From Siphonodentalium dalli (Eukaryota; Mollusca; Scaphopoda; Gadilida; Siphonodentaliidae): a DNA stretch of 64,000 nucleotides. The translations under genes and the position numbers were made by a program. This document shows positions 19,101 to 63,936 of the stretch, one piece after another. The stretch lies in assembly GCA_032622095.1 (NCBI GenBank), contig CP136066.1, forward strand, positions 173,723,164-173,787,163. Direction: 5' to 3'. Numbering within the stretch: the stretch's first letter is position 1; every line of letters starts with the position of its first letter. Below the pieces are notes generated by a model. That model made no database searches. It was not told where the DNA came from and saw only the letters and a list, made by a program, of their open reading frames with translations.

Positions 19101-22100
19101 CCAACTCGACGCTGTGGCAGCCATCGGCATCCAAATGAAAAGCTCCCTTGAAGATCAACTTAAGAAACTACAACAGTATGAGACTGCTGTCCATCAGTAT
19201 AAACCCAACATGGATGAGCTTGAAACGATTAACCAGGTTAGTAAGATCAAACGTCGTGTTCTCTCATCGTTGCTGAATAGTTAGTGTATGAGAATGCTGT
19301 CCATCAGTATAAACCGAACATGGATGAGCTTAAAACGATTAACCAGGTTAGTAAGATCAAGGGTCGTGTTCTCACGTCGTGGCTGAATAGTTAGTGTATG
19401 AGAACTCTGTCTATCAGTATAAAGCTAACATGGACGAGCCGGAAACTATTAGCCATGTTAGTGGGATCAAAGGTTGGTTCATCATATTCTGTTGTTGAAT
19501 GATTAGTACATCAATATAAACCTAACATGGTCAAGTTATATACAGATGAACATGTTAGTGAAGTTAACCCTTTACCCAACAAACCGGCCAAATAAAGCTT
19601 CAACAACCTAAAATATCTTCGGTCTGTCTCAATAAAACCATACAAATATGGATATCATTGGAACCGGCACCTTGACCACATTGTGATAGTTACAGTTATG
19701 CCCTGTGCCAATGCATTCTCTTATATATGCGAGTCGACCATAGGTCGCCTCGCATATATAAGAGAATGCATTGGCCTAAAAAAAATATATTTTTAACACT
19801 TTTTACCATTTTTTCTTACATTCTTTAACAATTTTATAATTTTTAATGTGTTAAGCCAATGCATTCTCTTATATATGCGAGGCGACCTAGGTCGACTCGC
19901 ATATATAAGAGAATGCATTGGCACAGGGCCCTTCTGTTGGGTAAAGGGTTAAAGGTCGTGTTCTCACACTGTGGTTCAATGTTGACATGTAAAATATCTT
20001 AAAGGCCCACTTAATTTTTCGAGTCACCGATTATTATATTTTATAGTGCCTTGATATACGGTTTTAATAACAATCTATGCCATTAAATATGATTAAAATA
20101 GTATAATTTGTCACCATTTGAAATGTCTGTGTCTCAGAAGATGCCTATAGAGAAATTGAAAGATTCACCCATTATGGCTCCTAGAATGCAACAGAATTCA
20201 AACTAATAATGTATTTTCAATGAAAGGGGAATAACTATCTTTAAGATATAGAGTTATTCCCCTTAATTGAAAATAATACACTTTGCACTACAAAACAGAT
20301 TAAACTTAACACAAAAACACGTCAATAACTCAACAAAAGCAATATTTTCACAGTTAATACACCAGATAAGATGATAATACAATGTTTTGAAGCTTCCTCT
20401 TTCAAATGGTATATAATATGGCATATATTTTATATATGTGATCTGGGGGTTCATGGTGTATAATATGGCATATATTTTATATATGTGATCTGGGGGTTCA
20501 TGGTATATAATATGGCATATATTTTATATAATGTAATCTGGGGGTTCATGGTATATAATATGGCATATATTTTATATATGTGATCTGGGGGTTCATGGTA
20601 TATAATATGGCATATATTTTATATATGTGATCTGGGGGTTCATGGTATATAATATGGCATATATTTTATATATGTGATCTGGGGGTTCATGGTATATAAT
20701 ATGGCATATATTTTATATATGTGATCTGGGGGTTCATGGTATATAATATGGCATATATTTTATATATGTGATCTGGGGGTTCATGGTATATAATATGGCA
20801 TACATTTTATATATGTGATCTGGGGGTTCATGGTATATAATATGGCATATATTTTATATATGTGATCTGGGGGTTCATGGTATATAATATGGCATATATT
20901 TTATATATGTGATCTGGGGGTTCATGGTATATAATATGGCATATATTTTATATATGTGATCTGGGGGTTCATGGTATATAATATGGCATATATTTTATAT
21001 ATGTGATCTGGGGGTTCATGGTATATAATATGGCATATATTTTATATATGTGATCTGGGGGTTCATGGTATATAATATGGCATATATTTTATATATGTGA
21101 TCTGGGGGTTCATGGTATATAATATGGCATATATTTTATATATGTGATCTGGAGGTTCATGGTGTATAATATGGCATATATTTTATATATGTGATCTGGG
21201 GGTTCATGGTGTATAATATGGCATATATTTTATATATGTGATCTGGGGGTTCATGGTATATAATATGGCATATATTTTATATATGTGATCTGGGGGTTCA
21301 TGGTATATAATATGGCATATATTTTATATATGTGATCTGGGGGTTCATGGTATATAATATGGCATATATTTTATATATGTGATCTGGGGGTTCATGGTAT
21401 ATAATATGGCATATATTTTATATATGTGATCTGGGGGTTCGAAAATTACGTGGGCCTTTAATAGAAAATAAATGATATTTGTTATATTTTTTAATGCACC
21501 CTCAATCAAAGATGAGAACTGAACAGCAATATAAATACTCATCCATATATTTTAACCCTTTACCCAACAGAAGGGCCCTGTGCCAATGCATTCTCTTATA
21601 TATGCGAGTCGACCATGGGTCGCCTCGCATATATAAGAGAATGCATTGGCTTAACACATTAAAAATTATAAAATTGTTAAAGAATGTAAGAAAAAATGGT
21701 AAAAAGTGTCAAAAAAAGATTTTTTTTAGGCCAATGCATTCTCTTATATATGCGAGGCGACCTATGGTCGACTCGCATATATAAGAGAATGCATTGGCAC
21801 AGGGCTAACTGTAACTATCACAATGTGGCCAAGGAGCCGGTTCCAATGATATCCATATTTGTATGGTTCTATTGAGACAGACCGAAGATATTTTAGGCTG
21901 TTGAAGCTTTATTTGGCCGGTTTTGGCCGGTTTGTTGGGTAAAGGGTTAAACGATTGGTATTCATTTTGAAACTAGAGTAATGTCAGTACACTAGCAGTC
22001 GGCCATAATTCACAACTGGAACTCAGAGATTTGTGCATCGGAACAACTGTAGCTCGATGTTTCAAACAGTGTATGATGTTCCACGATTGTGAATGATAAT

Positions 22101-33885: not shown

Positions 33886-34240
33886 CCTAAGCAGAATGAG
33901 GTATTCAAAGGATGAATTTGGTGATAATGACCCACAGTGTCAGACAGCCATCGTCTGATTCAATTATCTATAGTCTCAAATTAACTTTGTTTTAGTTAAT
34001 ACTTTCCCTACTGTTCAGTTTCTAAATCCCCTAATTTACATAAGATAAATAGAATTATCAAGGTGACACATGGGTGAACATCACCAACTTCAACATGATC
34101 CTAGGTCTCCCATAGCCGTTAAGGCCTAAGCGGAATGAGGTCCCCAGAGGGTGAATTTGGTGCTTGATGCTAGCATGCCATGAGGGATATTGTTAATAAA
34201 TTCACCCTCTGGGAAACTCATTCTGCAAATGTCAGGCACG
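33886..34240. mobile_element. D foldback element
   Basis: It starts cctaagcagaatgagg and ends ctcattctgcaaatgtcagg, with common D interior. The left module has lost its inverted partner. Confidence 0.7.
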
Positions 34241-34250
34241 GTGACCCTTA

Positions 34251-35472
34251 TTAGCTCAACTTACTTTATAAGTTTGAGCTATTGCCATGGTTTGGCGTCC
34301 GTCGTCCGTGTATGCGTGTGTCCGTCAACAATTTACTTTGGCGCGGGCTACAGGTCGTACCTTTGGTCTGATCTTTATATTTGTCATGAATGTTGACATT
34401 GACATGTAGATGGGAACGAGTCATTTTGGGGTCATTCGGCAAAAAAACATGGCCGCCAGTGGCCATCTTGGATTTAAAAATTCAATCCATTGGCGCGGGC
34501 TACAGGTCGTACTGCTTATCTGATCATTATAAAATTTGCCATGGATGTTAACATTTACATGTAGATGGGAACGAGTCATTTTGGGGTCATTTGGCCAAAA
34601 AATATGGCCGCCAGCAGCCATCTTGGATTTTACTCTTTGCATGACTAAATCCTTTGGCGCGGGCTACAGGTCATAGTTTTGGTCGGAACTTCATAAAATT
34701 TGTCATGGATGTTAACAATGACATGTAGATGGGAACAATTAATTTTGGGTCATTCGTCTAAAAAACATGGCTGCCAGCAGCCATCTTGGATTTTACTCTT
34801 TGCATGACTAAATCCTTTGGTGCGGGCTACAGGTCGTACCTTTGGTCTGATCTTTATGAAATTTGTCATGAATGTTGATATTGACATGTAGATGGGAACG
34901 AGTCATTTTGGGGTCATCTGGCCAATAAATATGGCCGCTGGTGGCCATCTTGGATTTCAAAATTCAATCCATTGGCGTGGGTTACAGGTCGTGCTGTTCG
35001 TCTGATCATCATGAAATTTGTCATGGATATTAATATTGACATGTAGATGGGAACGAGTGATTTTGGGGTCGTTCGGCCAAAAAACATGGCCGCCAGCAGC
35101 CATCTTGGATTTTACTCTTTGCATGACTAAATCCATTGGCACAGGCTACAGGTCGTACCTTTGATCGGATCATTATGAGATTTGTAAAGGCTGTAGATGG
35201 GAACAGGTCATTTTGGGGTAATTCAGAAAAAAACATGGCTGCCGGTGGCCATTTTAGAATTTACTCTTTGCATCAATAAATCCTTTGGCACACCATAATC
35301 ACCACATCCCTGATCCGATCATTATGAAACCTGTCATGAATGTTGATATTGACATGTACATCTAGTCTTACTTAGACATTTCAATTAGCACCTTTCCTAT
35401 TCCTCCATTTACTGTCAACCATTAAATTATTCCCCTACCTAAGTTGAGCTACAGTGTCATTGACACTTTCAT
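34251..35472 (+). mobile_element. E element E1b (pearl/HINE-like)
   Basis: A complete element: TTAGCTCAACTTACTTTATA at one end, about six to seven 160-bp units, then ccatttactgtcaacc, aagttgagctacag and tgtcattgacactttcat at the other. There is no coding capacity: the period is not a multiple of three and frames change along the array. Confidence 0.85.
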
Positions 35473-35648
35473 ACTTGAGACTCTCCCATCAGGGTCAGGA
35501 TGGTGAACACTTTGGATATCAATAGGAAGGTTTCGCAAAACACGGATAGAGTTACGATTATGTTTATGGTACTACGCCATATGTAATCAAATTATGCACA
35601 CATTCTGTCACAATGGATAGGGCATCAATCATTCGGTTTCTATAAAAA
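35473..35648. other. spacer between opposed E elements
   Basis: 176 bp of sequence not seen elsewhere in the window separates the tails of E1b and E2. Nothing is recognised in it. Confidence 0.6.
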
Positions 35649-38600: not shown

Positions 38601-38947
38601 TCAATTGACCCCAAAATTACTCGTTCCCATCTGCATGTCAATATTAACATCCAGTACAAATTTCATGACAATAAGACGAACAGTACGGCCTGTAGCCCGT
38701 GCTAATGGATTGAATTTTGAAATCCAAGATGGCCACTGGCGGCCATGTTTTTTTTCCGAATGACCCCAAAATGACTCGTTCCCATCTACATGCCAATGTC
38801 AACATCCATGACAAATTTCATAATAATCGGAGCAAAGGTACGAACTGTAGCCCGTGCTAAAGGAAATTGTTGACGCATCACGCACACACGGACGACGGAT
38901 ACCAAGCCATGGCAATAGCTCAAACTTTACAAAGTAAAGTTGAGCTA
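35649..38947 (-). mobile_element. E element E2 (pearl/HINE-like), about 20 tandem units
   Basis: It starts atgaaagtgtcaatgacact, continues gtagctcaacttgg, then about twenty units of about 164 bp, and ends catggcaatagctcaaac plus the terminal hairpin and CTAA. Two unit types largely alternate: one opening gatttagtcatacaaagagt, the other ggattgaattttgaaatc. Confidence 0.88.
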
Positions 38948-46453: not shown

Positions 46454-49400
46454 CTAAAACATAAAATACACAATAATTAACCCCTTTATCTCTAACTAAA
46501 ACATAAAATACACAATAATTAACCCCTTTATCACTAACTAAAACATAAAATACACAATAATTAACCCCTTTATCACTAACTAAAACATAAAATACACAAT
46601 AATTAACCCCTTTATCTCTAACTAAAACATAAAATACACAATAATTAACATAAAATACACAATAATTAACCCCTTTATCACTAACTAAAACATAAAATAC
46701 ACAATAATTATCCCCTTTATCACTAACTAAAACATAAAATACACAATAATTTTAACCCCTTTATCATTAACAGGACTCTCAACTCAGTTATAAAAGGATA
46801 CGATGGATTGGTCTATTAATCATTTGTGGAGATAATATTAGCAGGAAACAGGCAGAGAAACAACATGCTGTACTACAGTAATGCCCTAAATAATTGACTC
46901 CTTAACCACAGCAGAATTATGGGTAATTTTTCAGGATTTAGTCGGAAATATGGCTTGTTGCCATTCATCGGAAAGCTCTCACTGTGGCTAAGGAGTCGAT
47001 TATTTAGGGCATTACTGTACATCTCGTTTAGACCTTGATTAATGAATGGTAAATTCCATTCAGTTATAAAAGTATACATTGGAATAGCCGATTCTTAATT
47101 TGTATGTTTGAATAGTCATGGTTAATAGTTGAGTGAATGGGCATTCAGAATTAAAATGGCAACAGCCCCACCCCACCTCAAGAGTCAAGACATGTAATGT
47201 TCTTACCATAAGGAGTTGTTACATTGTAGCCATCACGTGGTGTTGTTTTTCCTTGGATCATAAGACTGTTAAAGTGCGTGTGAGTTATATCTTCGTGCTG
47301 TGTAGATTCCCTGACGTTACCCAGAGCAACCTGAAAGGAGTTTGGTGAATTAATATGACCACACACACAAACACATATATACCTTGACTAGAATTTGGGA
47401 ATGCACCCAGCCCAATACCCTATCACAGTGTTATAATTACAATAGCAGTAACCCATATTCTGAAATAACAAGTTTGATACTGGGACTCTAGAATGCATTC
47501 CTTCACAAGACACTGGGAGTGCCCCAAATATGGAAGGGATTCACTGAGATAGTTTCATATTTTATAAAACTAGCAGGGTTCTACTAATACAAGATTATGC
47601 AATAAAAATACAATAATAATCAGGTGAATACAAAGACTTAATATTTCGACAATTGTTTACAAATTTAAATTTGTTATAGTGACTACCGATCGACTTCAAT
47701 TATCTACTTCATTGTATTTTTGTGGCAGTGAAAATCACTTAGCATTAAAAACAAACTCGATATTGGACCTGATCAGACCCTAAATAATTACCTCACATAA
47801 CAGAGCCAGGCGGCTGTTTGACTCTGTAGAAAGGTTGTAGCTGTAAGCTTCACACTTCGCAAAACAATCGGCTGTGTAGAGTCCCTGGAAGAAAACAGAA
47901 TTCACAATCTTTTACTTCTTTATATTTAACACTTTCTATAGTGAATGTATTCTCCGATTCAGTAAAAAAATTATACATTGGAATGGCCTATTATTCATTT
48001 TGAGGGGTGTTCAGGTAATAAAAGCAGAGACCGATAGAAAAACAGATAATACAAGAGCAGAAAGAATCATATTCAATTGTGAGAAATGTTCATATAATAA
48101 GTTCAACAAATGATCATAAGTCGTTTGTTGAATATTATCTGAACATTTCCTGAGGGATCTACTCATCAATGAGTTTTAGTATAGAAAGAGTTAACCCTTA
48201 CTGTACTGAATAGTTTCTCCCACACAGTTATAACTGTATACATTGGAATGGTCTATTATTAATTTGGAGATGTGCTCAGGAAAAACAAGAGCTGGGTTGT
48301 CGCCCAGTGCATACCCCCAAGTGGCATACCTATAACCAATGGCTGAGATACTCAAGGAGCGGGAGCAAAACAAATCAAAATATCCAGATAAACAAAGATG
48401 AATAAACACTAGAATGGAAAACCTATATAAAACAATGGAACACTCCATTGAAAGTCCGGATAGTGGTGAACATCCATACAAATTTCATTGAGATCCGACA
48501 ACCAGGGGTTGAGATACATGTATATGCCTGGATGGACAGCACGACGGACGATAGAATTGGACGCATGTAATCCAGTATACCCAAAATTTCCTTCGGTCAT
48601 ATGGTATAATAATGACCAGGAGACTTGGCTCTATGGAATCTACTACTGATATGTATAATGTATATTATTATATGATTCCGCATTAATTAGTGGGATACTG
48701 CCGTGGTGAAGAACGTTGATTTAAGTTCCCTATTAGGTACCTCGATTATGCATTGATTTGTGTCTTCTGCCAATTTGGGGATAAAGAGAAACTAAACTAA
48801 ATGAAAGTGTCAATCACAGTAGTGGCTCAACTTAGGTAGGGGAATAATTTAATGGTTGACAGTAAATGGAGGAATTAGGAAAGGTGCTACTTGAAATCCC
48901 CCCCGAATGACCCTAAAATGACTCGTTCCCATCTTCATCTCAATGTCAACATCCATGATAATTTTTATGAAGATCAGACAAACAGTACGGCCTGTAGCCC
49001 GAGTCAACACGGCCTGTAGCCCGCGTCAACGGATTCAATTTTGAAATCCAAGATGGCCACCAGCGGCCATGTTTTTGGCTGAATGACCAAAATGACTCGT
49101 TCCCATCTACATCTCAATATCAACATTTATGACAAGTTTCATAATAATCGGATCAGGGATGTGGACTGTAGGATTTAGTGATGCAAAGAGTAAATTCTAA
49201 AATGTTTTTTAGCCAAATGACCCCGAAATGACTCGTTCCCATCTACATGTCAATGTCAACATCCATGATAAATTTCATGAAGATCAAACAAACAGATCGG
49301 TCTATAACCCATGCTAATGGATTTTGTAGAAATATTTAGTCATACAAAGGGTAAAATCCAAAATGGCCATTGTTGGCCATATTTTTTTGCCGAATGACCC

Positions 49401-52400
49401 CAAAATGACTCGCTCCCATCAAGAGGTTTGGTGATGATCAGATCAGGGATGTGGTCTGTAGGGTGAAAGTATTTAGTGATGCAAAGAGTAAAATCCAAGA
49501 TGGCCACCAGTGGCCATGTTTTTTGGCCGAATGATCCTAAAATGACTCGTATATATATAACAAATTTTATGATGATAAGACAAACAGTAAGGCCTGTAGC
49601 CCCCGCCAATGGATTCAAATTTGAAATCCAAGATGGCCACCAGCAGCCATGTTTTTTGGCCGAATGACCCCAAAATGACTTGTTCCCATCTACATGTCAA
49701 TGTCAACATTCATAACAAATTTCATAAAGATCAGACTAACGATACGACCTGTAGCCCGCGCCAAAGGAAATTGTTGACTGACACACGCACACACACACGA
49801 ACGACGGACGCCAACCCATGGCAATAGCTTAAACTTACAAAGTAAGTTGAGCTAAAAAGAAAAAGAAACTTTCTAAAGAAACTATAAAACTATTTAATTT
49901 GATAAAGATAGTTTCAAGAAAAGATGAGACCTAAGCAGAATGAGGTCCCCAGAAGTTGAATTTAGTGACGCCAGCCCACTGTACAGGTTAGCGTCACTAA
50001 ATTCACCCTCTGTGGACCTCATTCTGTAAATGTCCGGCACCATATTTTCAGGCCTCCTTCAATTGTCCATCTTCTGTAGATGTTTAGGGAGAATAAATAT
50101 TGGTCACACTCACTTCTCCAAATAGAGCTCCGGTTTGTGGAACTTCTGGGGGACATATGAGCAGGCCACGATTGAGGATACTGATGAAGTTAGCGACTGA
50201 GCTGCCATGCCATAAAAGTCTGTGGTTATCCATGCTGAGTTTCTTCATCTTCTCTTCCTCGGCGGGTCGAGACAGTTTGTACACTGCTTTGACTTTTGTA
50301 TGTGTTGCTATATGGTAAATAATGAAGCAATTTAACAATGGACCTTTCCACAGCTGTCAATCAAATAATTATCAGCAGATATTGTTCTATCAATCAGGGA
50401 CTGAGGCGGTCGCTTGCTGCAATACAAATTCTATGTTCACATTAATGTTGATATCCGCGTATACTTTCAGTGTGAAATTGCCTCCATTCAAACAACTTTT
50501 TTGTTGTCAAATCATAATGTAGTGAAATTTCTATTTCTCCACGATTCATCGATGATTGTAACACTGTTTTTCATTTGCATGACACTTGTCATAAATTTCA
50601 CAATTAAACTTTTAAAGACAAAATGAATGTATGTTCTCCTGTATATTATAGTATAAGGGCAAGCGCTGTTAACCTAATTAAACTATTTCAGACACCTTGT
50701 CTACTAGCTCCTCCCACTAGTGAATATGTGTGGAAAGCTATATTATTGCCAGTTCTAGTTTGCTGTTAACTAAATATTTTCTAAACAAAGACTAAATATT
50801 TTCTAAACAAAGACAATTATTCATTATAGAAGACCAGCCCAAAATATTTTGAAAACTAATAAATTAAAAATTCCCATCATCATCAATGGTATATATATTT
50901 TACTCCATTTTATAGTTTCCCTACTGATATTATACTACAGGTGCTGCACTTATTTAATTTTCTAAAGACATATTATGTACTTGTTCAGGTGCGTGAAACT
51001 GAGCAGTTAGTATCCAGGCACTATGCCAACTGGATGAATGCAGCATTCTACTAACAAATGTCGAAAATCTGAAGCAAATCGACCATACCACTCCATAGAA
51101 AACATCGTCTGAACTGCGCTCAATTGTAAATATTTATATATTGATTCGGGATGCATCTATTGGCGATAAACTAATGAAAACAATTTCACCATCGAGAGTC
51201 ACTGCATTGAATTAATATCAAAGAATGACGGTGTGTGTTGACAATTTGGATATAATATTTGTAAAAATTACTACTTTGAACAAGATTATTCTCCATTTAT
51301 ATTTGATCACCCTACCGGAGTGTTTCACATCACTTTAAGTAGATGTAGGTAAACCATGATCATATATTTAAAAACGAGCATAACTCTGACAAAAAAGCTA
51401 ATTTTAAAAGCATAACTGTCAGGACAACTATTCAATTTAGTCAATTTACCCCAGTATTTAAATTAAAATTGTTTATTAGTGCATGTTTAAGTCGTGTGAG
51501 GTGAATCATGAACCGGTGAATCAATTTTCAATGACCAGATTCCAACCATTTGGGGTAATTATTTAGTTAACTTAATTATTAGTGCCCCTGATGTCAACAG
51601 CACCTATCCGATGACACTCCCTGGGTCAATCGATCCCTGTGTACAAATTTTCAGCTCCGAGGGTCCAGCCATTTGGTTGCTCATAGCCCAACATACAAAC
51701 AAATACATTTGAGTTTTATTAGTATATATATACTGCTGAACGAGCATAAATTTGAAATTGGCACCCATTATTATGAGGGTGTGAAATCGGGTGTGCTATT
51801 ACATGTATGATTAAAATCATGAGTAGCTACTCACATGAGTTGAGGATGTATCTGAGGATGTACTGTGTTTCATCATCAGACTGATTCATCAGCTCGATAC
51901 GGCAGCCAATAGCATGATACATGTAGTCCAATGGATGCATATCTTAAATAATTAAATAAGGATATAAATTACGTCATGATACATGTAGTCCAATGGATGC
52001 ATATCTGAAACATTAAATTAGAGATAAATTACAACGTCATGATACATGTAGTCCAATGGATGCATATCTGAAACATTAAATTATAGATAAATTACATCAT
52101 GATACATGTAGTCCAATGGATGCATATCTGAAACATTAAATTAGAGATAAATTACGTCATGATACATGTAGTCCAATGGATGCATAACTGAAACATTAAA
52201 TTAGAGATAAATTACGTCATGATACATGCAGTCCAATGAATGCATAACTGAAACATTAAATTATAGATAAATTACAACGTCATGATACATGTAGTCCAAT
52301 GGATGCATATCTGAAACATTAAATTAGAGATAAATTACAACGTCATGATACATGTAGTCCAATGGATGCATATCTGAAACATTAAATTAGAGATAAATTA

Positions 52401-55400
52401 CAACGTCATGATACATGTAGTCCAATGGATCCATATCTGAAACATTAAATTAGAGATAAATTACAACGTCATGATACATGTAGTCCAATGGATGCATATC
52501 TGAAACATTAAATTAGAGTTAACCCTTTCATGGCGATAGCAGTGCTGGTGCAGCATAAAAGATACTGTGCCAATGCATTCTCTTATATAGGCGAGTCTCC
52601 TGTCTCGCATATATATATAAGAGAATGCACTGGCTTACAAGTCAAGGTAAATATTGTTAGGCCAATGTATTTTCTTATATATGTGAAGACTAGCATATAT
52701 AAGAGAATGCATTGGCACAGGGTTCTCGCAACATTTCAAGCTCCAGTGTCATGGAAGAGTTATATTACAATAGCATGATATCTGAAAAAGAAACAATCAT
52801 TTTAATCAATATTTGACCTAATAAAGTCCTAATTTTAGTTCACTATTCACCCCTATTGGTGGCTGATGTGTGACAAAATTTTATTGGAGCCATCATCGGC
52901 ATACCTAGTAGTCAGGAAATGGAAGAAACCCGCATGTAGTTCACTATAGATAGTCATTACCGGCAGCATTTCACCTCTGAAAATTTTGTTTTGATGCAGA
53001 CACTTGAAACGTTTTTGGGAAATGAGTTAATATATTTCATGGAATATATCCACTGCACGCCTGTTAATATTTCATGGTTCTAGGACTGTTCACGGTAATG
53101 TACCAACAGATTAAATGCATCAAAAGGAAAATCAGATTATGATATATAGCACCAATAATGAAAGTGTCGATGACACTGTAGCTCAACTTGGAGAGGGGAT
53201 AATGTCATACATTACAGTCATTGGAGCAATAAGGAATGCGGAATGTTTAGGTAATACTAAAGGTCAACCCGAAGAGCCATATGAAGTTTGGGATGATTTC
53301 GTGATGCAAAGTGTAAAATCCAAGATGACTGTCGGCAGCCATGTTTTTGTTTGAATATCATTCAAATTCAATAGCTCCCATCTAAAAGTGATCCTGAACA
53401 TGCATGTAAACTTTATAAACATTTCTCCAATTAATGACGGCTACAGGGTGTACCGATGGATTCAAATGTGAAATCCAAGATGGCCACTAGCAGCCATGAT
53501 TTTTAATGAAATTTGGAACAAAAATTATGGCTCTCATCTAAAGATTACCCCTCATCTAAATGTTATGAACTTTGGGATCAATTGGGTGAAAAATGGAAGT
53601 TGGGCTAGCCAAAGGATTTAGTCATGCAAAGAGTAATTTCCAAGACGGCTGCAGACAGCCACGTTTTCAAATTCGATAGCTCCCATCGAGAGGTGATCCA
53701 AAAGATGTCTGTATATTTTCAAAACAATTCTTCAATAAATGCAGCCTGCAGGGTGTGCCAGATGAATTCAGATTTGAAATCCAAGATGGCAGCTGGCAGC
53801 CATTACTTTTAGAGGTCCCCCCGAAGAACCATATGAAGTTTTGTGACAATCATATGAGAGATGCGACCTGTAGGGTGGGCTAAATGAAATTGTTGACACA
53901 TGCACATGAGCACGAATGGACGGACGACGGATGCAAACCGATGGCAATAGCTCAAACTTGACTTTGTCAAGTTGAGCTAAAAAGAGCTTTTCACACATTT
54001 TCTATTATATAATTCAATAGATTTTCAACGGAAATAAACACATCCTGTTTTGTTGGGGTTCGATCAAGAAAACAGGGTGCGTTCTCTCCTCCATTCTCAC
54101 CTTTGATATTGAGCTGTGAGCCTAACAGGATCCGCTGAGCCACATGTAAATCGATGAGATTACTAATGTTTGATAACTGAGCCTTCAGCTGTTTCTTGTT
54201 ATCAATCGGCTTAATTTTCTCATACTCGTAACCAGATTGTGGGACTAAATGGTAGTAGTCATTCGTCAAATTCAGAATCTGAATAGAAATATTTTCATAT
54301 TACTCATCTATAAAAGTAACCTGGGAATCGCAGCGACTCCAGTTGTTCTTCTGCGTACCATACAATCTCAGCTATTTAATAAATGACAAGAATCGCATTA
54401 GAGATGCGTGGTTAAGTTTTGGTAGCTATGCCAAACATCGGCTTGGATTGAGAATGAATTAATTGTAATGGCTATCATATAAAACGCTGTTGAGGACGTC
54501 TGATACCAATTATTAACTGAAGTTAGTTGATCAACAAAATCAGTTGATATTTGTTTCAAGTTATTGCGCTATCATGATCAAATTTCACACAAATGAACTA
54601 ATAAAGGGCTGTAACTCCACCCAAAATATGTGGACCTAACCAATTTTCAAACTCGATTAAGAGCAAGTTTCATATACCAAATATCAACAAAATCAGTTGA
54701 TATTTGTTCAAGTTATCATCCTATCGCCATTTGTAGATATACTTTGAAAATACTAACTCAAAAACAGTTACCATATTTGAGTTCAATTATACACATGGCC
54801 TACATAACTTTTGAGGCCATAAACTTTGACTTTTTGGACGAACAAAACTCAGCATTTAGCTGAAGTATATATTTCACTTCCTATTTTAATCACAAGACAA
54901 AAATAGAACGGTAAAGATATTTTATGGATTGGTTGGAAAATTGTAATGATTTGTTTAATAAACTGATCAATATATCCATTACTTTCTAAAATTTTACAAA
55001 ATATGTTTTTAACCCTTTCATGATGGGAGCTGCACTGGTGCAGCATTAAAGATCAAGTGCATTCTCCCATCAGGAACCTCGCACATATAAGAGAATGCAC
55101 TGGCTTACAAGGTCAAGGTAAATATTGTTAGGCCATTATATTCTCTTATATATGCGAGGCTCCCTATGGGAGACATGCATAAATAAGAGAATGCAATGGC
55201 ACAGGATCTTTAATGCTGAAACAGCGCAGCTCCCATCATGAAAGGGTTAATGATCATATGCATCATGTTACAACCCCGTCAGAGACACTAAGAGGGTTAA
55301 TACCTTTTCACTGTTTTGCTCATGCTCAGCAGAAACAATTGCCAGGGTGTTATCCCTCTGTTTCTGGACGATTTCTATCAGCTCACTGAAACAATAGAAA

Positions 55401-58400
55401 GTATTATTGAGTTACCTATATCCTAATCCAACAAAGCCTGAATTTAGTGTCTGACATTTGCAGAATGAGGTCACCAGAGGGTGAATTTAGTGATACTATC
55501 CCGCACAGTGGGCTAGCATCAGCAAAATCCCACTCTGAGGTCCTCATTCTGCTTAGGCCCCAACTGCTATTGTTGGTGACGTTCACCCATTAGTCACCTC
55601 AATTATTCATTTTATCTTCTGCAAAGTAGGGGATATAGAAATTCAACAAAAAGGAAAAACTAACTGAAAACCATGTTAATTTGAGACCATAGATACTTCC
55701 CAGAAGATGATGCCTAAGCAGAATGAGGTCCCCAGAGGATGAATTTGGTGATGCTAGCCCGCCATGCGGGATAGCGTCACCAAATTAACCCTCTGGTGAC
55801 CTCATTCTGCAAATGTCAGAGCATTAAAGTTAAGAGCATTTGAAATATGAACTAAAACTAAAGTAGCATACCAAGAAGAACAACTCTATTGTTTTGTTTA
55901 TGTGTGTTTAGTTACAACTTTAAATAAGCCTTTAGAAGAAAGATGCATCTTACATGAATTTATTCTACAACTAACTCACTGCTATATACATAACCCATTG
56001 GAATGCATCCAATGACAGCTTATTCTAGGTCTGAAAATGTAATTATGTTTTGGTGCCCAATTAAAAAACATTTCTTCCATGTCAGTCCGATGTTCCTCAT
56101 GATGTGCCCAAATTCAACCAAACTAATGTCCTGTCAAAACAGTATTTTAATAATCAGAAATTTTAAAAGGGTACTGTAAATTCAATAAATTCCTGGTGAT
56201 AACAACGGTCTGTTATCGATAATATATCGAAAACTAAGTAATTTGAGTCGAAGATGTATTCTGTAAACGTTCAGGTTAATATGTCAACTTAAAATCAAAG
56301 TTTAAATAATTTGATATAAATTTAATTTATGGCTGGAGTCATAAATTAAATTACGCATTTCGGTGTAAAAGACGTAATCAAAATAATTCACGGAAGTGGA
56401 TGGGGGCAACTCGTGGCACACATGATCATGTAAAAAAATTATGTTCATACGGGGCATAAACTCAAGCCACACACTGACCAGTGACGAAACAATGACTTAA
56501 ATGAGTATGTGGGACTAGTATGCATATAATATAACATTTATTTGATACATTTGCTTGAAAACTGTACAAAAATTTCCCGACAAAGACAATTGGTATTATA
56601 GTGATACTATCCCGCACAGTGGGCTAGCATCAGCAAAATCCCACTCTGGGGTCCTCATTCTGCTTAGGCCCCCAACTGCTATTGTTGGTGACGTTCACCC
56701 ATTAGTCACCTCAATTATTCATTTTATCTTCTGCAAAGTATTTGATACATTTGCTTGAAAACTGTACAAAAATTTACCTGACAAAGACAATTGGTATTTT
56801 CGCAATCCGGCTAATCTGCCATCCTTAACATTACTTCGTACTCCACACTTTCAAATAATGGAAATCTGGTTACCTTATTCTTCGATTGAGAGACTATAGT
56901 AACCAACACAACATTTGAGTACAATATCACTTGAATGAAGAATAGACTTTATGCAATTCATACCTTAGCTGGTGGAGAATTTTGCCAGCTTCAGCGAGAA
57001 CGTTCCTCTGGATGCGTCCGAGCGGCATCAGTTCACCATCAATCCCTGCCTTGTTCATGGCTAACTTGAGCATTTTTACATTTGTCTGTAGATAAAAATG
57101 AAATACATTGAGAATTAATCAAACAGTTTGTTATCCCTTTCATAACGGGAGCCGCGCTGTTGCAGCATAAAAGATCCTGTGCCAGTACATTCTCTTACAT
57201 ATGTGAGTATCCCATAGGGAGCCCCACATATATAAGAGAAGGCACTGACTTATAAGGTCAAGGTATATATTGTTTGGCCAATGCATTCTCTTATATATCT
57301 GAGGCTCCCTATGAGAGACTCACATATATAAGAGAATTCATTGGCACAGGGTTCATGACGGGAGCTGCGCTGGTGTAGCATTAAAGATCCTGTACCAGTG
57401 CATTCTCTTATATATGCGAGTCTCCCATAGAGAGAATTCATTGGCACAGGTTTTTTGTAAAATTTCAGGAAGCTCCAGTCATGGAAGGGTTAATATGAGG
57501 TATCTGATGTTTAGTTTTACAGCATCTTGTGACAACTCGATATGTTGCTCCGATATGTTGCGATTCAGATATTTACTCACCATACTTGCTACGAGGTCTC
57601 TGATATGTTCTGGCAGTGACGATGTAGCATCGGATGTTATCGTGAACTCAACTGGCTTCAATTTCACATGATTCTGTTCTTTTTGCACCAAACGGTATTT
57701 TTTCGGATGATTTGTGAAACTGGAAAGAAAAAGAAAATAATTAAAAACGTTATAAATGAATTATAGTCCATTTAATTCTGTCAATGCATTTACAGTTTAT
57801 AAGTGCTGTTGAATTTCAAGGTAATATATTAATGTAATATTTAAAGTAGATGTAACATAATTAGGAGCTCACACAACTTCAACCCTTTAATACGTTGACT
57901 GCCCATACACCTATAATGTATTATTCCAAGATATTAACTTGAGACTAAGCCTGAATTTAGTGTGTCTGACATTTGCAGAATGAACAAAAGCAATTCATTT
58001 TACATGTCAAGTATATTATAGTTATTTTACAGACTTTTATGTTATTTTGCATGAAACCACTTCGAAAGCCTTGAGTCCATTTAATATTTATGCTTTTGAA
58101 TGAGAGAACTTACATTTTGAGTTTATGCCAGTCGTTCCCTGTTTTCTGTTTGAATATTTTACAGAACTCCTTTATAGCGTCATCTTCTGACATGGGCGTA
58201 TTCTGGTACTGACCTCGGTCACCAATTCGTCCCCACCGGGTAAACACATCATATATCCCCTTACCCGGCAGCCACAGAATCTGTAAAGAGATTGTAAAAG
58301 TAACAGCATTGATTGCACTAGAGTTGTGAATGTGAATGTGAATGTCTCATAGTCGAAAATTGGCAATAACTATGCTAAAAAGCTGGCATGTTTTCTAAAT

Positions 58401-61400
58401 TACCTAAACAAGATTGAAGAATGGACAAACAAGCAGATTTCTGTTGCAGTTTACACCTGAGGTGGGGGGGGGGGGGGGGGGGGGGGTGGGAGCTCTATAT
58501 CACTAATGGTAGCAGTAAACAGCTCCACAATTAAAGGGACAGGCAGCCTTCATTGTAGTTTATAATTTAGATTAACATTATCAAATTATGATAACAACCT
58601 CAAGAATATACTAATAGTATAGCATAATGATGATATGAATGCGATAATATTCACAAAACATGCTTTGTGTCCGAGAAAATACAGGTCGACTGTTGTTTAG
58701 TTTCTCGCAAAAAATGCAGTAGATTGTTTATAAGCAGAATCACGATATTGCACCATTTCCTTATTTAGATTCTCGCGCTTTATAGGTCGGTTGTAAAAAC
58801 CCTAATTTGGTGCGCCTACAACTTATAGCTCACAATACGACGGTAGTAATATTCCTTATTTGGTATGTATGACCATATATCGGTTAGGAGAAAATGCTGA
58901 CTGGATTGAAAAATATTCATCTCTTTGCAAGAACAATTATATTATGTACACGTTTTCTGTCTGATCAATTCCCAATCATGAAGTAACGTGGATTAGCTTG
59001 ATTTTGAACTGACAGCGAGTAGAATAGGTTGTTTAAAATAAAATTAGTTGTGATTTGAATGCGATTGTTGATTGCGCCAATAATTTTATCTACGCATTCC
59101 ACAGCGCTACGGAACATTTTTATTGGACGATACAGTAGTTAAAAGTGTTTGTCTATATAAACAATCATAACATAACATTTTTTATGTTTGTTTACATAAC
59201 CAAGGGTACAATGTGACAATAACATTCAATGTACCCGATATCTATGATTTGTAAAAGAATAACATCTGTCTATTATATAATATTCTTTCTGTTTATGGCC
59301 GTTTTAGTGGATGTGACTATTTTAAAACCTCTACTCACAGGGAAGGCCGCCCACATCTTTAAAAGACAAAAGAAATTTTGCCACCCAAAGTTGGCTGCAT
59401 TAGCATGTTTCAGTAGCTAATTTTATTTGGGACAGATTAATTTTGCCATGAAATGCCATGCACATAGAAATTACCAATCCATGGCAAGTAACTGTTTATC
59501 TATCTTCAAATACCAGACTTTACCTGAATTACGTTTAATTTTTTTATTGAAAAAGGAATGACAAAGATGAAAGTGATAGTATCCTTTAGCATGTCCATGC
59601 TCGCAATCCCAGACAGAATAGAGTGGCCCCCCACTTTGCACAGGCCTACTCACTTTCTTGCGACATCTGGATTATCCGTTAGTCAACTTTGGCGTTATCT
59701 GTTACTTTGTTACACAAATTATAGAAAATATCTGATTTATCATTGGTTTTGATGATTCTCTATTATTCAAACAATTGTTTTGCTCATCGGTTTCGACAAT
59801 ATTCGGGGTGTTATACAACGATCACATTAACTTGCAGATCAGTTTGTTAAACTATTATCGGGAACTCAGTTCTTTTGTGGTATGAGTAAAAATATTTTCA
59901 TGGCATTTGTTACAGGTCTAATCAACGCGTTGAGCAGATTGTGTATTCGTATTCAGGGCCTCTGAAATAAGTAGGCTATAATAGACATAACCTTTCATGG
60001 CAATCAAATCAATGGCTATGTAAGAGTAACGTTTAGATCGCTGTTAAACTTTTAGGACATTTCGACGATAGGACCATTCATATTTAAATTGTGGCACATA
60101 CCTGAATAAAGTTAGTACTGATGGTTAACAAGGCGCATCAATATGATACATGATATATGATGCACTTTTAAATGTATGTGACAATAATTTCTTAAATATA
60201 TAGCAACATTATTACAAATACTTCTGACAGTGCTCTGGACTTACCTGCAATTTATAGAAATTATACAAGCCCCATGTTCCACAGTTGACATCAATCTTAC
60301 ATAACGTTGCATCGTATGGAATGTTCTGTTGCTTATCGGTTAATACTTCTCTGCAAAAAAAAAAATTAAATCCAGAATTAATAACAATCTCATCTGTATA
60401 TTCACATTTAGCATGGAAGTTGATAAAGGTATACAGTAATGCCCTAAATAATCGACTCCTTAAACACAGCAGAATTATTGGTAACTTTTCAGGATTTAGT
60501 CGGAAATATGGCTTGTTGCCATTCAAAGGAAAGCTCTGTATATATATAAGAGAATGCAATGGCACAGGATCATTAATGCTGCACCAGCGCAGCTCCGGTC
60601 ATGAAAGAGTTAAGACCCAATATTTATTATAAATCAGGAATTAAAATCTGACGAGAATCACATTCATGATTTTCGAAAAAGCAGTGGATCGCTGTAGAAA
60701 TGCTATATTTTGATTCTTGCAAATTTTATGGATTTTAATTATTATAATTATTTTATGGCGGCAATTTCAACCGAGGACATTTTTGTGACTACACTGGACT
60801 ATATCAGATTAACTAGCGGATACACTGAGATCATTCTCACTAAAACATACCCAACATCCTTCATACCCAAGTATTTGTCTGGTTTGACTGTATTAGTGTA
60901 ACTTACCCGACGTCCTTCATACCACAGCATTTGTCTGGTTTGACCGTATTAGTGGACACGCTGCCATTACTCTCAGTGGAGTCATGTAGTTTTGTGAGCA
61001 TTTCAGTTGCGTCGGCTTGGAAATCAACACTCTTGTTCTCTATCTTGTCTGCCACTTCAAATGCAGCAAACGAGGTTTTTTCCTACAAAAATACAATTGA
61101 ATTAATCAACACCGAAATATGGAGGAAATCATTGGTAGAAAAGTTTATTTTCTTTCGAAAACCAAGAAGTATTGTTTTGAAAAGTGTGCAAATTTTTTTC
61201 TAATCGTGTCTTTTTCCAGAAAATAAACCTTGCTTGCACAAGTTAAGTGTTCTAGTTTCTAATTAATCTTTTAGTTGAAGATGTAGCTTCATTTCCTGAG
61301 TAAGCCTGAGGACCCCAGAAGGTGAATTTAGTGACGCTATCCTGCTAGCATCACCTAATTCACCCTCTGGGGACCTCATTCTGCTCAGGCCTCAATCTTC

Positions 61401-63936
61401 TGAGAAATCTATAATCTCAAATTAACATTGTTTTTAGTTACTTTTTCCCTTGTGTTCAGTTTTTGTATCCCATAATTTGCAAAAAGATAAAACACATAAT
61501 CAAGGTAATAATAAACTTCAACTGGGGAACTTCAATCTGATCCTAGATCTCCCATAACAGTTGAGGCGCAAGCAGAATGAGGTTCCCAGAGGGTGAATTT
61601 GGTGATGCTATCCCGTATAGTGGGCAAGCATCACCAAATTCACTCTCTGTGGACCTCATTCTGCATGGCCTCATCTGCTATGGGAGACATAGACTCAGAT
61701 TGAAGTTTCCAAATGGTGAATATTGTTATGTACACCCATTGGGAACCTTGATTATGCAATGTGTCATCTGCCAATTTGGGGATATAGAGAAACTAAACTA
61801 AAAAAGAAATAGAATCTATGTGAAGAAGTTTCTATAGAAATCAGATAATAAAGAAACTTTCCAAAGATGAGGCCTAAGCAGAATGAGGTCCACAGAGGGT
61901 AAATTTAGTTATGCTAGCCCGCTATGCGGGATAGCGTCACTAAATTCGCCCACTGGGGACCTCATTCTGCAAATGTCAGACACACTATATCCAGGCTTGT
62001 ACCTGAGAAAATTTATCTTCTAAGGCTTTTTACTGACTTTGAAAGAAACTCTTCGTGCCCTATCAGCAAGTATGAATTTAGTGTGTCTTACATTCGCAGA
62101 AAGAGATCCCCAGAGGGTGAATTTAATGACACTATCCCGCACAGTTGGCTAAGTCACCAAATTCTCCCTCTCGGCAGCTCATTCTGCTTAGTCCTCAACT
62201 GTTGTTGGAGGCCTAGATCAGTTTGAAGTTCCCCAGCTCACCCATTAGTCACCCATTAGTCACCTCGATTATGCATTTTTTCTTCACCAAATTAGGGGTT
62301 ATAGAAAGTGAAAAGAATGAAAAAAGTAACTAAAAACACGGTTTATTTGAGACTATAGATACTTCCCAGAAGATGAGGCCTAAGCATAATGAGGTCCCAT
62401 AGGGTGAATCCCACTGTGTGGGATAGCATCACTAAATTCACCCTCTGGGGACCTCATTCTGAAACTGACAAGACACACTATTTGCAGACTGGATCATGTC
62501 TATGTGGTTGGTACTCACAATCTTGTCCTCTTTCACACCCGTAAGCTTCTGTAACATCTTCGCCAACTTGGGTGCACCCTGGATGATAGCATGTTGTAAG
62601 GGAGATAACCCTGCACTGTCAACTTTCTCTAGCGGAGCACCGGCTTTGGCGAGAATGTGTAGAAGACCATCATTATCAAAGGTGCCTAAATCGAGTGGAC
62701 GGACGAGGTGGTGTATCACTGTCCATCCCTGCTTATCTGCTGCCGCCAAATCTACTGGACTCGTCTTCTCTACAGTCGTAAAACTGTTCTCTACAAAACA
62801 GACGAGATCATGCGGAACTGTTGATCGCAATGAGAGCGGCATAACATATTGGTCTATCAATTGACAATATATATCTTAAAAGGATGTTTCTTTATATATT
62901 GGCCATGCTTGGATGCATATTATAGGTTACAAACACTAAGTACTACAGTTTTAGTTTTAAATTTTAAGTCAATTTAACCCTTTATGACTGGAGCTTCCTG
63001 AAATTTTGCAAAAACTCTGTGCAAATGCATTCTCTTATATATGCTAGTCTCCCATACAGAGCCTTGCATATATAGAGAGTCCATTGGCCTAACAATATTT
63101 ACCTTGACATTGTAAACAAGTGCATTCTCTTATATATGCAAGGCTCCCTATGAGAGACTCGCATATATAAGAGAATGCACTGGCACAGGATCTTTAAAGT
63201 TGCACAAACGCAGCCCCATCATGAAAGGGTTAAAAGGATGTTTTTTTTATATATTGGCCATGCTTGGATGCATATTATAGGCTACAAACAGCAAGTACTA
63301 CGGTTTTAGTTTTAAATTGTACGTTAATTTAAAAACTATAGTTTGGTTTAAAGGTGAAATTTGATCTTAATCTTGATTTTGTCGATGAATGACTAACTAT
63401 TTCTGCAAAAAAAAACTTGATATTGAGTTGTTAAAAAAAAGCTTACCTTTTCCAAGTGATGTTATTTTTTTCAGCGATGGCTGTTTGACCAAGGCAGTAA
63501 CAGAGGGATCTTTCTCATCATCGGATTTATCTCCCGATTCATCCCCATCGTCCTCGTCATCATCGACGATGTCTGTGTCCTTATCACTATCATCATCTTG
63601 CTCCTCTTCATCAGAATCATTCCCGAAATCGTCACCCGCATCGTCCATTTCATCTTCGTCCTCATTCATATCACCATCATCGTCATCATCATCATTCCCA
63701 AAATCATTGTCATCGTTATCGTCTTCTTCTGGTTCAGCCTCCTCTTCCACCTCCTCCTTATCGTCTCCATTAGACTCAGCAACGACTACCGGGACGTCGT
63801 CATCATACTTTATTCGGAACACTTGACGTGACAGCTGTTTAGACAGGTTGGTTTTTAAACCAGGTTTAGCTGTCTCCGTCGCCTGAGTTGGGTCATATTT
63901 GTAGTTCAGCAACAACTTTGCTAGCTGTGCATCATT
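46317..63936 (-). CDS. ankyrin-WGR-PARP poly(ADP-ribose) polymerase, PME-5/TANK-1-like (14 exons, 5' end outside window)
   Basis: The enzyme transfers ADP-ribose units from NAD+ to acceptor proteins. Fourteen exons on the minus strand splice in frame to 816 residues plus stop: 63936-63447, 62853-62519, 61082-60907, 60350-60245, 58280-58114, 57719-57581, 57085-56964, 55385-55304, 54278-54101, 51942-51835, 50307-50114, 47884-47792, 47330-47207, 46453-46317. Residues 1-15 end an ankyrin repeat. About 45-135 is an Asp/Glu-rich tract. About 175-275 are ankyrin-like repeats. About 345-425 is a WGR domain (RWGRIGDRGQ at 384). About 430-600 is the alpha-helical regulatory domain. About 600-816 is the catalytic domain with His668 (LLWHGS), Tyr702 (GLYTAD) and Glu799 (YNEFIVF). 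Ankyrin repeats combined with WGR match C. elegans PME-5/TANK-1. No SAM domain is present C-terminally, unlike vertebrate tankyrases. The triad predicts an active polymerase. Confidence 0.94.
46455..46772. repeat. 42-bp tandem array at the last PARP splice acceptor
   Basis: The unit taaaacataaaatacacaat then aattaacccctttatcactaac starts at 46455, immediately beside the exon at 46453, and repeats about seven times (46497, 46539, 46581, 46623, then shorter units). Each unit carries, on the minus strand, the acceptor-like tattttatgttttag. Confidence 0.92.
46874..47019. mobile_element. B foldback MITE, internally deleted
   Basis: tacagtaatgccctaaataa to tatttagggcattactgta. The right arm is cut to about 40 bp. 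Confidence 0.87.
47207..47330 (-). CDS. PARP gene exon: catalytic domain loop (124 nt)
   Basis: Acceptor ctttcag, donor gtaaga. It encodes VALGNVRESTQHEDI and GKTTPRDGYNVTTPYG, matching PARP1 VALGNMYEL and GKTTPDPS. The shape is PARP1-like. Confidence 0.94.
47792..47884 (-). CDS. PARP gene exon: catalytic Tyr segment (93 nt)
   Basis: Acceptor cttccag, donor gtaatt. It encodes GLYTADCFAKCEAYSYNL then RLALLCE, aligned to PARP1 GIYFADMVSKSANYC and LILLGE. Tyr702 is the second triad residue. Confidence 0.96.
47936..48194. mobile_element. C MITE
   Basis: TTAA-CACTTTCTATAGTGAATG at left, gttttagtatagaaagag-TTAA at right. It carries the same palindrome as the 1515-1811 copy (ataagttcaacaaatgatca ... 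tcgtttgttgaa). A related element starts at the shared TTAA (48191). Confidence 0.82.
48191..48300. mobile_element. C-related MITE fragment abutting the previous C copy
   Basis: TTAA-CCCTTACTGTACTGAATAG then cagttataactgtatacatt and ggtctattatt, with no right end recognised. Confidence 0.5.
48801..49854 (-). mobile_element. E element E4 in a PARP intron
   Basis: atgaaagtgtcaatcacagt at left, then about six diverged 160-bp units, ending catggcaatagcttaaac, a 6-bp-stem hairpin (acttac/gtaagt) and gagCTAA. Confidence 0.87.
49930..50045. mobile_element. D foldback single hairpin
   Basis: cctaagcagaatgaggtccc ... ggacctcattctgtaaatg, a single hairpin module of about 100 bp lying 70 bp downstream of a PARP exon end. 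Confidence 0.75.
50114..50307 (-). CDS. PARP gene exon: NAD+-binding core with catalytic His (194 nt)
   Basis: Acceptor catatag, donor gtgagt. It encodes THTKVKAVYKLSRPAEEEK then HRLLWHGSSVANFISILNRG, LLICPPEVPQTGALFGE. His668 in LLWHGS is the first triad residue. The stretch CPPEVPQTGALFG matches PARP1 APPEAPVTGYMFG. Confidence 0.98.
50769..50813. repeat. 22-bp direct repeat, 2 copies
   Basis: ctaaatattttctaaacaaa is repeated at a 22-base offset. Confidence 0.85.
50955..51336 (-). repeat. dispersed repeat G, reverse copy
   Basis: The best-preserved reverse copy of G, from ggtgcgtgaaactgagcag to ccggagtgtttcacatcact. It is close to 2869-3260 (shared ccattgtatg-free middle, gacggtgtgtgttgacaatt). 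Confidence 0.7.
51835..51942 (-). CDS. PARP gene exon: catalytic domain start (108 nt)
   Basis: The acceptor is atttaag, weaker than a CAG; the donor is gtgagt. It encodes MHPLDYMYHAIGCRIELM then QYILRYILNS, matching PARP 'HPLD--Y--L-C-I' and 'E---I--Y--N-T'. The first 30 bases and the acceptor are reiterated nine times just upstream in the intron (51978-52517). Confidence 0.94.
51978..52517. repeat. 60/63-bp tandem array of a PARP exon start and acceptor, 9 units
   Basis: Each unit holds the first 30 bases of the exon at 51942 together with an acceptor on the minus strand (tttaatgtttcag/ATATGCATC). Units start at 51978, 52041, 52101, 52161, 52221, 52284, 52347, 52410 and 52473, so periods are 60 or 63, differing by an acaa/aca change. 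All but the real exon run into an in-frame TAA within the unit. Confidence 0.95.
52519..52763. mobile_element. A2 hairpin MITE adjoining the array
   Basis: TTAA-CCCTTTCATGGCGATAG at left; right end agctccagtgtcatggaaga with a degraded border. Two shortened hairpins. Confidence 0.8.
53158..53980 (-). mobile_element. E element E5 in a PARP intron
   Basis: atgaaagtgtcgatgacact at left, four diverged units, ending gatggcaatagctcaaac, hairpin acttgac-ttt-gtcaagt and gagCTAA. It ends about 120 bp from the exon at 54101. Confidence 0.87.
54101..54278 (-). CDS. PARP gene exon: regulatory domain end (178 nt)
   Basis: Acceptor tattcag, donor gtgaga. It encodes ILNLTNDYYHLVPQSGYE (PARP1: LSNRFYTLIPHDFG) and LSNISNLIDLHVAQRIL, the helix leading to the catalytic domain. 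Confidence 0.94.
55009..55250. mobile_element. A2 hairpin MITE
   Basis: TTAA-CCCTTTCATGATGGGAGCT to AGCTCCCATCATGAAAGGG-TTAA, a well-preserved inverted pair. It lies 54 bp downstream of the end of the exon at 55304. Confidence 0.9.
55304..55385 (-). CDS. PARP gene exon: regulatory domain helix (82 nt)
   Basis: Acceptor tgtttcag, donor gtatta. It encodes ELIEIVQKQRDNTLAIVSAE then HEQNSEK, a helical segment of the regulatory domain. Exon phases (2 in, 0 out) fit both neighbours. Confidence 0.88.
55441..55823. mobile_element. D foldback element
   Basis: atttagtgtctgacatttgc at left, ctgcaaatgtcaga at right, with two hairpin modules and the common interior. It is the likely source of the 141-bp patch at 56600-56740. 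Confidence 0.8.
56541..56799. repeat. D fragment flanked by a 59-bp direct repeat
   Basis: tttgatacatttgcttgaaa and the next 39 bases occur at 56541 and again at 56741. Between them lie 141 bases nearly identical to 55488-55628 of the D element (one substitution, one extra C). Confidence 0.9.
56964..57085 (-). CDS. PARP gene exon: regulatory domain (122 nt)
   Basis: Acceptor tctacag, donor gtatga. It encodes MLKLAMNKAGIDGELMPLGR then IQRNVLAEAGKILHQL, corresponding to the PARP1 stretch with MPLGKLSKRQI. Confidence 0.94.
57131..57493. mobile_element. composite A2 hairpin MITE
   Basis: It begins ttatccctttcataacggga, runs through two hairpins, then a second A2 start (ttcatgacgggagctgcgct) and part of a third hairpin, ending gtcatggaaggg-TTAA. 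It looks like one A2 joined into another. Confidence 0.82.
57581..57719 (-). CDS. PARP gene exon: end of WGR, start of regulatory domain (139 nt)
   Basis: Acceptor tttccag, donor gtgagt. It encodes FTNHPKKYRLVQKEQNHV (PARP family: F--HPKKY-L) and LPEHIRDLVASM, the first helix of the PARP regulatory domain. Confidence 0.93.
58114..58280 (-). CDS. PARP gene exon: WGR core (167 nt)
   Basis: Acceptor ctttacag, donor gtaagt. It contains VFTRWGRIGDRGQYQNT, the signature that names the domain, then DDAIKEFCKIFKQKTGNDW, the conserved helix. In PARP1 and PARP2 this domain contacts DNA ends and relays activation. Confidence 0.96.
58464..58486 (+). repeat. poly-G run (23 bases)
   Basis: Twenty-three consecutive G followed by tggg in a PARP intron. 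It could form a G-quadruplex, and its length is likely to be unreliable. Confidence 0.9.
58487..60244. other. PARP intron without repeats
   Basis: 1.8 kb with no family recognised and no coding segment required by the protein alignment. It is the cleanest intron stretch in the gene. Confidence 0.5.
60245..60350 (-). CDS. PARP gene exon: WGR domain N-terminal part (106 nt)
   Basis: Acceptor ttttgcag, donor gtaagt. It encodes EVLTDKQQNIPYDATLCK and NCGTWGLYNFYKLQ, the first strands of a WGR domain (Y-ATL-I-VN-N-FY-LQ pattern). Confidence 0.92.
60432..60613. mobile_element. B fragment fused to A2 fragment
   Basis: A B left arm (tacagtaatgccctaaataa to ggaaagctc) runs straight into the right half of an A2 element (tatataagagaatgcaatgg ... 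ccggtcatgaaagag-TTAA). Confidence 0.85.
60907..61082 (-). CDS. PARP gene exon: linker before WGR (176 nt)
   Basis: Acceptor ttttgtag, donor gtaagt. It encodes EKTSFAAFEVADKIENKS, a Ser/Thr-rich linker (HDSTESNGSVSTNTV) and DKCCGMKDVG. The phase fits both neighbours. No domain is recognised in the linker. Confidence 0.87.
61302..62470. mobile_element. cluster of three D foldback elements
   Basis: Modules at about 61302-61395, 61565-61670, 61868-61985, 62090-62195 and 62385-62465, each opening gaatgaggt-like and closing ctcattctgc. Interior blocks match other D copies. The last module ends about 50 bp from the exon at 62519. Confidence 0.75.
62519..62853 (-). CDS. PARP gene exon: ankyrin repeats (335 nt)
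   Basis: Acceptor ttgatag, donor gtgagt. It encodes about 112 residues including DKQGWTVIHHLV and SAGLSPLQHAIIQGAPKLAK, two recognisable ankyrin-repeat cores. The upstream part (PHDLVCFVENSF) may be another, weaker repeat. Confidence 0.92.
62876..63325. repeat. 90-bp direct repeat flanking an A2 MITE
   Basis: taaaaggatgtttctttata, then cttggatgcatattatagg and agtactacagttttagtttt, occur at 62876-62968 and again at 63232-63325 with about six differences. The A2 element 62974-63233 sits between them. Confidence 0.88.
62974..63233. mobile_element. A2 hairpin MITE
   Basis: TTAA-CCCTTTATGACTGGAG to CCCCATCATGAAAGGG-TTAA with two hairpins, the first partly degraded. Confidence 0.88.
63447..63936 (-). 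CDS. PARP gene exon: ankyrin end and acidic tract (490 nt)
   Basis: The minus-strand acceptor is tattatag and the donor aaaag/gtaagc. It opens with NDAQLAKLLLNYKYD, a typical ankyrin second helix and loop. It continues into a basic stretch and then about 90 residues dominated by Asp and Glu, from DDKEEVEEEAEPEED onward, and ends SLGKG. The acidic tract is low complexity and probably unstructured. Acidic tracts often bind histones or basic proteins; no specific role can be read here. Confidence 0.9.

Follow-up and report, generated by a model that had tools for sequence, protein, structure and literature searches.

In a 64,000-nucleotide stretch of animal DNA (contig CP136066.1, positions 173,723,164 to 173,787,163; the whole stretch is called the window below), a minus-strand PARP gene carries a tandem array in the intron before its exon at 51942-51835, with units made of the intron end, its acceptor and the start of that exon. 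The array is real and far beyond chance. It is quite likely a minisatellite of the kind termed a mirage, in which the copied acceptors are by-products of tandem duplication; mirages are described in PMC3087553 as tandem repeats spanning the exon-intron boundaries of amphioxus globin genes at both 3' and 5' boundaries. Local duplication of DNA has probably produced the array incidentally, not as a regulatory device, and a selected regulatory role is unlikely.

The anatomy of the array was established by direct reading of the minus strand from 54600 to 51400, with the repeat units cut at each acceptor. Nine head-to-tail units were found between 52499 and 51943 (Table 1), and Tandem Repeats Finder (TRF) reported an array at 51913-52522 with a period of 63, 9.8 copies, 94% matches and a score of 1034. 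The 30-base consensus of the exon part of the units was identical to the opening 30 bases of exon 51942, with six of the nine units free of any difference from it, and TTTCAG preceded the exon copy in all nine units, as against TTTAAG before the functional exon. A preliminary description of this DNA had proposed a nine-fold array of 60- or 63-bp units that repeat the opening 30 exon bases together with an acceptor, tttcag in the intronic copies and tttaag at the exon, and had derived it from the exon start and its acceptor by tandem copying. Our reading agreed with these statements, the origin being supported by the unit consensus, except that the last unit is 62 bp long and that a tenth, decayed unit with its acceptor at 52781 had been missed. 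In the last 26 intron bases, ungapped comparison gave 0, 0, 0, 1, 0, 0, 1, 0 and 10 differences for units 1 to 9, respectively; when gaps were allowed, the intron end of unit 9 differed from the unit flank by four substitutions and two indels. The core of the array is homogeneous and both of its edges, unit 0 (the decayed unit) and unit 9, are diverged. The exon copies of the nine units showed five base differences from the consensus, every one of which changes the peptide (H>D, D>V twice, P>S and Y>C). As D>V is common to two neighbouring units, these perhaps represent four events, a small number, and no coding constraint on the exon copies was apparent.

Unit 0 extends the array upstream to about 52800 and is split by an inserted repeated element, its joined flanks amounting to 41 bases, i.e., a 63-base unit minus 22. 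Its strong acceptor, TTTCTTTTTCAG at 52781, is followed by ATATCATGCTATTGTAATATAACTCT, and the 13-mer TATCATGCTATTG was found only in unit 0 and in exon 51942 over both strands of the whole window. A single 22-base gap sufficed to align unit 0 with the exon, and in the alignment with unit 1 the difference was split into two gaps; the latter alignment scored 45.7, compared with a maximum of 9.3 in 2000 shuffles, with much of the score coming from the 3' part adjoining unit 1. In unit 0, the CTATTG of the exon is joined to the unit-type intron sequence TGTAATATAACTC, at a place where units 1 to 9 have ACGTTG or a shortened form, and this junction fits, and may well represent, the original duplication breakpoint.

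The inserted element resembles a miniature inverted-repeat transposable element (MITE). Its exact ends are ambiguous, as its relatives align from before or from inside the left TAACTCT. The element has internal inverted repeats (TGCCAATGCATTCTCTTATATA...) and is abundant, at least dozens of sequences in the window matching it in part.

Table 1. Features of the PARP intron array and of related sequences in the window. For units 1 to 9, the higher coordinate is the first exon-like base.
Feature	Position	Strand	Description
Functional PARP exon	51835..51942	-	108 nt, start of catalytic domain; TTTAAG acceptor, GTGAGT donor; aligns to PARP1
Upstream PARP exon	54101..54278	-	intron donor at 54100, phase 1
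Unit 1	52437..52499	-	63 bp
Unit 2	52374..52436	-	63 bp; one exon-copy change
Unit 3	52311..52373	-	63 bp
Unit 4	52248..52310	-	63 bp
Unit 5	52188..52247	-	60 bp; three exon-copy changes
Unit 6	52128..52187	-	60 bp; one exon-copy change
Unit 7	52068..52127	-	60 bp
Unit 8	52005..52067	-	63 bp
Unit 9	51943..52004	-	62 bp; copy of the exon start and a diverged intron end, the latter forming the upstream flank of the functional acceptor
Unit 0, 5' part	52756..52781	-	ATAT + CATGCTATTG...; 22 exon-copy bases absent; keeps the exon's CTATTG
Inserted MITE-like repeated element	52522..52755	-	TAACTCT at both sides
Unit 0, 3' part	52500..52521	-	TAACTCTAATTTAATGTTTCAG
Relatives of the element in the window, among the matches listed	15695-15963, 62971-63233, 2581-2826, 57130-57354		by sequence match
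Acceptor-side array adjoining the last PARP exon (46453)	46454..46771	-	42-bp units, six further TTTTAG acceptors; unit without clear exon part
Donor-side duplication, same PARP gene	60844..60954	-	exon end and donor in two copies: GTAAGT at 60906, GTATGT at 60850
Donor-side array, neighbouring alpha-actinin gene	19176..19474	+	exon end and donor, 110 bp x 2.7; donor-like sites at 19237, 19347, 19457

The host gene was modelled from homology and splice consensus rather than from transcripts. The models comprised 13 PARP exons on the minus strand and 13 exons of the C-terminal half of alpha-actinin on the plus strand, with 26 acceptors and 24 donors across both genes (25 and 23, plus one of each from the exon at 47884). 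The frame joined from the last ten modelled PARP exons was open over 447 codons, and its product matched the Pfam families WGR (4.3e-14), PARP_reg (4.4e-23) and the PARP catalytic domain (1.8e-37). Residues 10-446 of this product aligned with solved PARP1 (E = 1.1e-57), unbroken across exon 51942, and the segments LLWHG, GLYTAD and YNEFIV contain what we take to be the H-Y-E catalytic residues. The PARP gene looks intact from the WGR exon onward. The three most upstream PARP exons stay separate from the joined frame, and exons within 60907-58280 may be missing; an Ank_4 match (5.3e-6) was obtained in an upstream PARP exon outside the joined frame. The region 63936-46317 on the minus strand apparently holds a single gene that combines ankyrin-like, acidic and WGR parts with the regulatory and catalytic parts of PARP.

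Splicing from 54101 to an array acceptor led to an early stop for all ten decoys, after 15-17 residues for units 1 to 9 and after 5 residues for unit 0. For units 1 to 9, the reading consisted of at most 10 PARP residues (DMHPLDYMYH) and 5-7 foreign ones before a TAA, so that the early in-frame stop proposed previously was borne out, whereas the figure of about 13 correct residues before it was too high. Among the eleven acceptors (ten in the array and the functional one), 51942 was the only one that leaves the PARP frame open, which makes it the most likely site of splicing.

Three other arrays in the window lie at splice junctions. At the last PARP exon, the frame was open and stop-free from each of the six decoys, and the functional acceptor scored 10.47, compared with 9.32 for the copies. 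Use of these decoys would lengthen the PARP catalytic domain by at least 14 residues (SDKGVNYCVFYVLV-like repeats), the nearest decoy adding 14. At the PARP donor 60906 (10.13, compared with 4.1 for its copy), bypass of the first donor gave an immediate stop in one frame, the one open through the exon, and bypass of the first alpha-actinin donor at 19237 (11.05, compared with 11.05 and 8.6) likewise gave a stop. These donor-side duplications in the PARP and alpha-actinin genes suggest that the same process has acted at 5' splice sites.

We next consider whether arrays are concentrated at junctions, taking 42 TRF rows, written as 30 intervals and merged to 27 arrays window-wide, which cover 7.4% of the two gene spans, with random shifts as the control. 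No enrichment was observed within the two gene spans, where 4 of 49 junctions lay in or adjoined arrays against 3.7 expected (P = 0.51). A 36-base ungapped local-copy test requiring at least 30 matches gave no excess either (1/50 junctions against 239/1500 random positions). When positions in two satellite blocks were left out, the counts were 1/50 against 118/1282 at this threshold and 2/50 against 170/1282 at a threshold of at least 26. The ungapped test is strict, giving 29 for the junction of exon 51942 itself, 25 for the PARP donor and 22 for the last exon. A special targeting of splice junctions by arrays was rejected on the count of 4/49 against 3.7 expected. The sequence of the window often duplicates short segments, and junctions get caught in this without visible targeting.

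These features were compared with those of known systems. In PMC3087553, the units of amphioxus Adh3 are 10-72 bp long, somatic instability is cited for Adh3, two BflGb6 haplotypes have 6 and 3 units, and the BflGb6 array has a homogenised core and diverged edges. As in BflGb6, the PARP array units contain an intron end with its acceptor and an exon start, and BflGb9 duplicates the 3' boundary of an exon, so that both splice sides are affected there as well as in the present window (PMC3087553). The same source describes interior units that are homogenised, with the cluster boundaries excluded, and many units that keep AG/GT signals. The PARP array likewise consists of boundary-spanning tandem units with a retained splice signal (CAG in 10/10) and a homogenised interior with diverged edges, and the donor-side arrays at 19176-19474 and 60844-60954 place the window among cases in which 5' as well as 3' boundaries are affected. 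It differs from the amphioxus mirages in its location in a PARP gene, in its ten intronic units with all acceptors scoring above a functional AAG, and in the transposable-element-like insertion in its first unit. It has every sequence-level mirage feature examined and, judged by these features, genuinely adds one more case to an established class. In human genes of segmental duplications, internal tandem repeats at exon-intron boundaries alter the splicing potential (PMC2812944); those repeats differ from one paralogue to another and can give rise to new introns, as transcripts support. The PARP array is known from its sequence. The amphioxus mirages and these human repeats were the only close precedents in a literature search whose coverage excluded most subscription papers.

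Exon definition is a recognised principle of splice choice, and it enters the explanation that we favour. A segment straddling the intron end and the exon start would have been duplicated in tandem inside the intron, and the resulting minisatellite would then have expanded and been homogenised through unequal exchange or slippage, a turnover that would keep the core uniform. Mature mRNA would most likely use the last acceptor, 51942, which the spliceosome most likely picks as the only acceptor followed by a full exon whose donor is close by. The decoys, each with about 30 exon bases and lying at least 62 bases farther from that donor, would mostly be skipped. Some leak to them is quite possible, and decoy-spliced RNAs, which would carry an early stop, should be lost by nonsense-mediated decay.

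The relative strengths of the acceptors were estimated with a position matrix built from the other 25 modelled acceptors, which come from only two genes. The ten array acceptors, all of them CAG, scored 9.5-11.95 and occupied ranks 1-10 of the 82 AGs in the intron plus exon, with the unit 0 acceptor as the top score in the intron, confirming that the decoys look better than the functional site. Several points weigh against the explanation by duplication. The functional acceptor scored 5.02 (rank 15 of 82), four AGs outside the array also outscored it, and site strength alone would not predict that the decoys are bypassed. The array at exon 51942 is, moreover, the exception among the four junction arrays, as the functional sites of the other three score at least as high as their copies, and we infer the use of 51942 from frame and homology. 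The leave-one-out scores of the 25 real acceptors ranged from 1.2 to 15.3 with a median of 8.2, and 20 of the 25 were above the functional acceptor; among the 26 acceptors, 19 have C at -3, 6 have T, and A stands there only at exon 51942. The functional acceptor is weak yet within the range of the modelled sites, and edge divergence can explain its weakness without selection for weakness, although such selection is also compatible with the data.

As a sub-case of the mirage explanation, a measurable fraction of the transcripts may go to the decoys and be degraded, which would cost little and involve no regulation. We regard this leaky, unselected mis-splicing as having slightly less than an even chance. 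The decoy sites score higher than the functional acceptor, and many mirage copies contain signals with the potential to serve as cryptic sites (PMC3087553). No result counts directly against it, but the amphioxus reports speak for regular splicing (PMC3087553, PMC3902484). The Adh3 data and the authors' RT-PCR (reverse transcription PCR) suggest no interference with regular splicing (PMC3087553). Adh and TnC are cited as duplicating splice sites without aberrant mRNAs, and for PGBD5 an automatic gene model that takes repeat copies as an exon is doubted by the authors (PMC3902484).

Poison exons and alternative 3' splice sites coupled to nonsense-mediated decay bring in a premature stop when the alternative site is used. 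The PARP array shares this property at all ten decoys, a likeness seen only at the sequence level, and its earlier interpretation as a set of poison splice sites in the PARP catalytic domain is possible and unproven, and nothing beyond that. As a regulatory device, the decoys would be used at a tuned rate set by copy number, with the TAA and decay throttling a catalytically competent PARP, which we consider improbable. The stops after 10/10 decoys agree with such a device, but early stops would, by expectation rather than computation, be common in unselected intron sequence, and in the sister array before the last exon no stop interrupts the frame. The top ranks of the array acceptors, the only AAG of 26 at the functional site, and a functional site weaker than its copies here alone among the four arrays also speak for it, and CAG in all ten units suggests that CAG may be ancestral; the weak acceptor can, however, be explained by edge divergence without selection. 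Junctions also meet arrays at chance frequency, and the data of the amphioxus authors suggest that regular splicing is kept (PMC3087553, PMC3902484). Less probable still is a bank of decoy 3' splice sites, tunable by copy number, that sets the amount of full-length PARP, with a change to AAG having weakened the functional acceptor once the array was in place and the decoys keeping CAG. If this were true, gain or loss of units between individuals or somatically would change PARP output.

An assembly artefact is very improbable: tandem arrays are prone to assembly errors, but the units carry private variants, fall into two length classes and include an insertion in one edge unit. Use of the units as alternative coding exons or microexons can be practically dismissed, since, although each has an acceptor and, after the exon copy, a donor-like GTAATT site scoring 2.9-6.0 (real donors, leave-one-out, 2.9-11.1), all five exon-copy differences alter the peptide with no coding constraint seen, and coding use by exon extension was rejected on the early stops from all ten array acceptors.

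Further repeats were noted elsewhere in the window. In the alpha-actinin gene, a local duplication (1155-1300 and 1510-1670, plus strand) starts at about donor 1156, its second copy matching 23 of 36 junction bases, and a very uniform minisatellite with a 47-bp unit, 22 copies and 98% matches occupies 20406-21440 in an intron. A diverged satellite of ~160 bp forms blocks at 32017-38864 and about 48900-49700, and similar sequence seems, by eye, to be present in the PARP intron at 53900-53250. The C-terminal part of the alpha-actinin was identical at 145/199 positions to the human and at 147/199 to the fly sequence (human-fly, 143/199), values compatible with a lancelet as well as with another animal. 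The mirage reports found all concern cephalochordates, a host range that is perhaps no defining trait. Rfam at the gathering threshold gave no match over the whole window, and an exact scan for the 28-base exon copy gave no hit in either viral_contigs or genome_contigs, neither of them a eukaryote collection.

The PARP intron offers a natural test of splice-site choice among eleven related 3' splice sites: the ten with the best scores would break the protein, and the one that preserves it is only fifteenth in rank. Should the animal not be a lancelet, boundary minisatellites would not be a lancelet speciality, and the route of intron gain proposed in PMC3087553 would likewise not be lancelet-specific.

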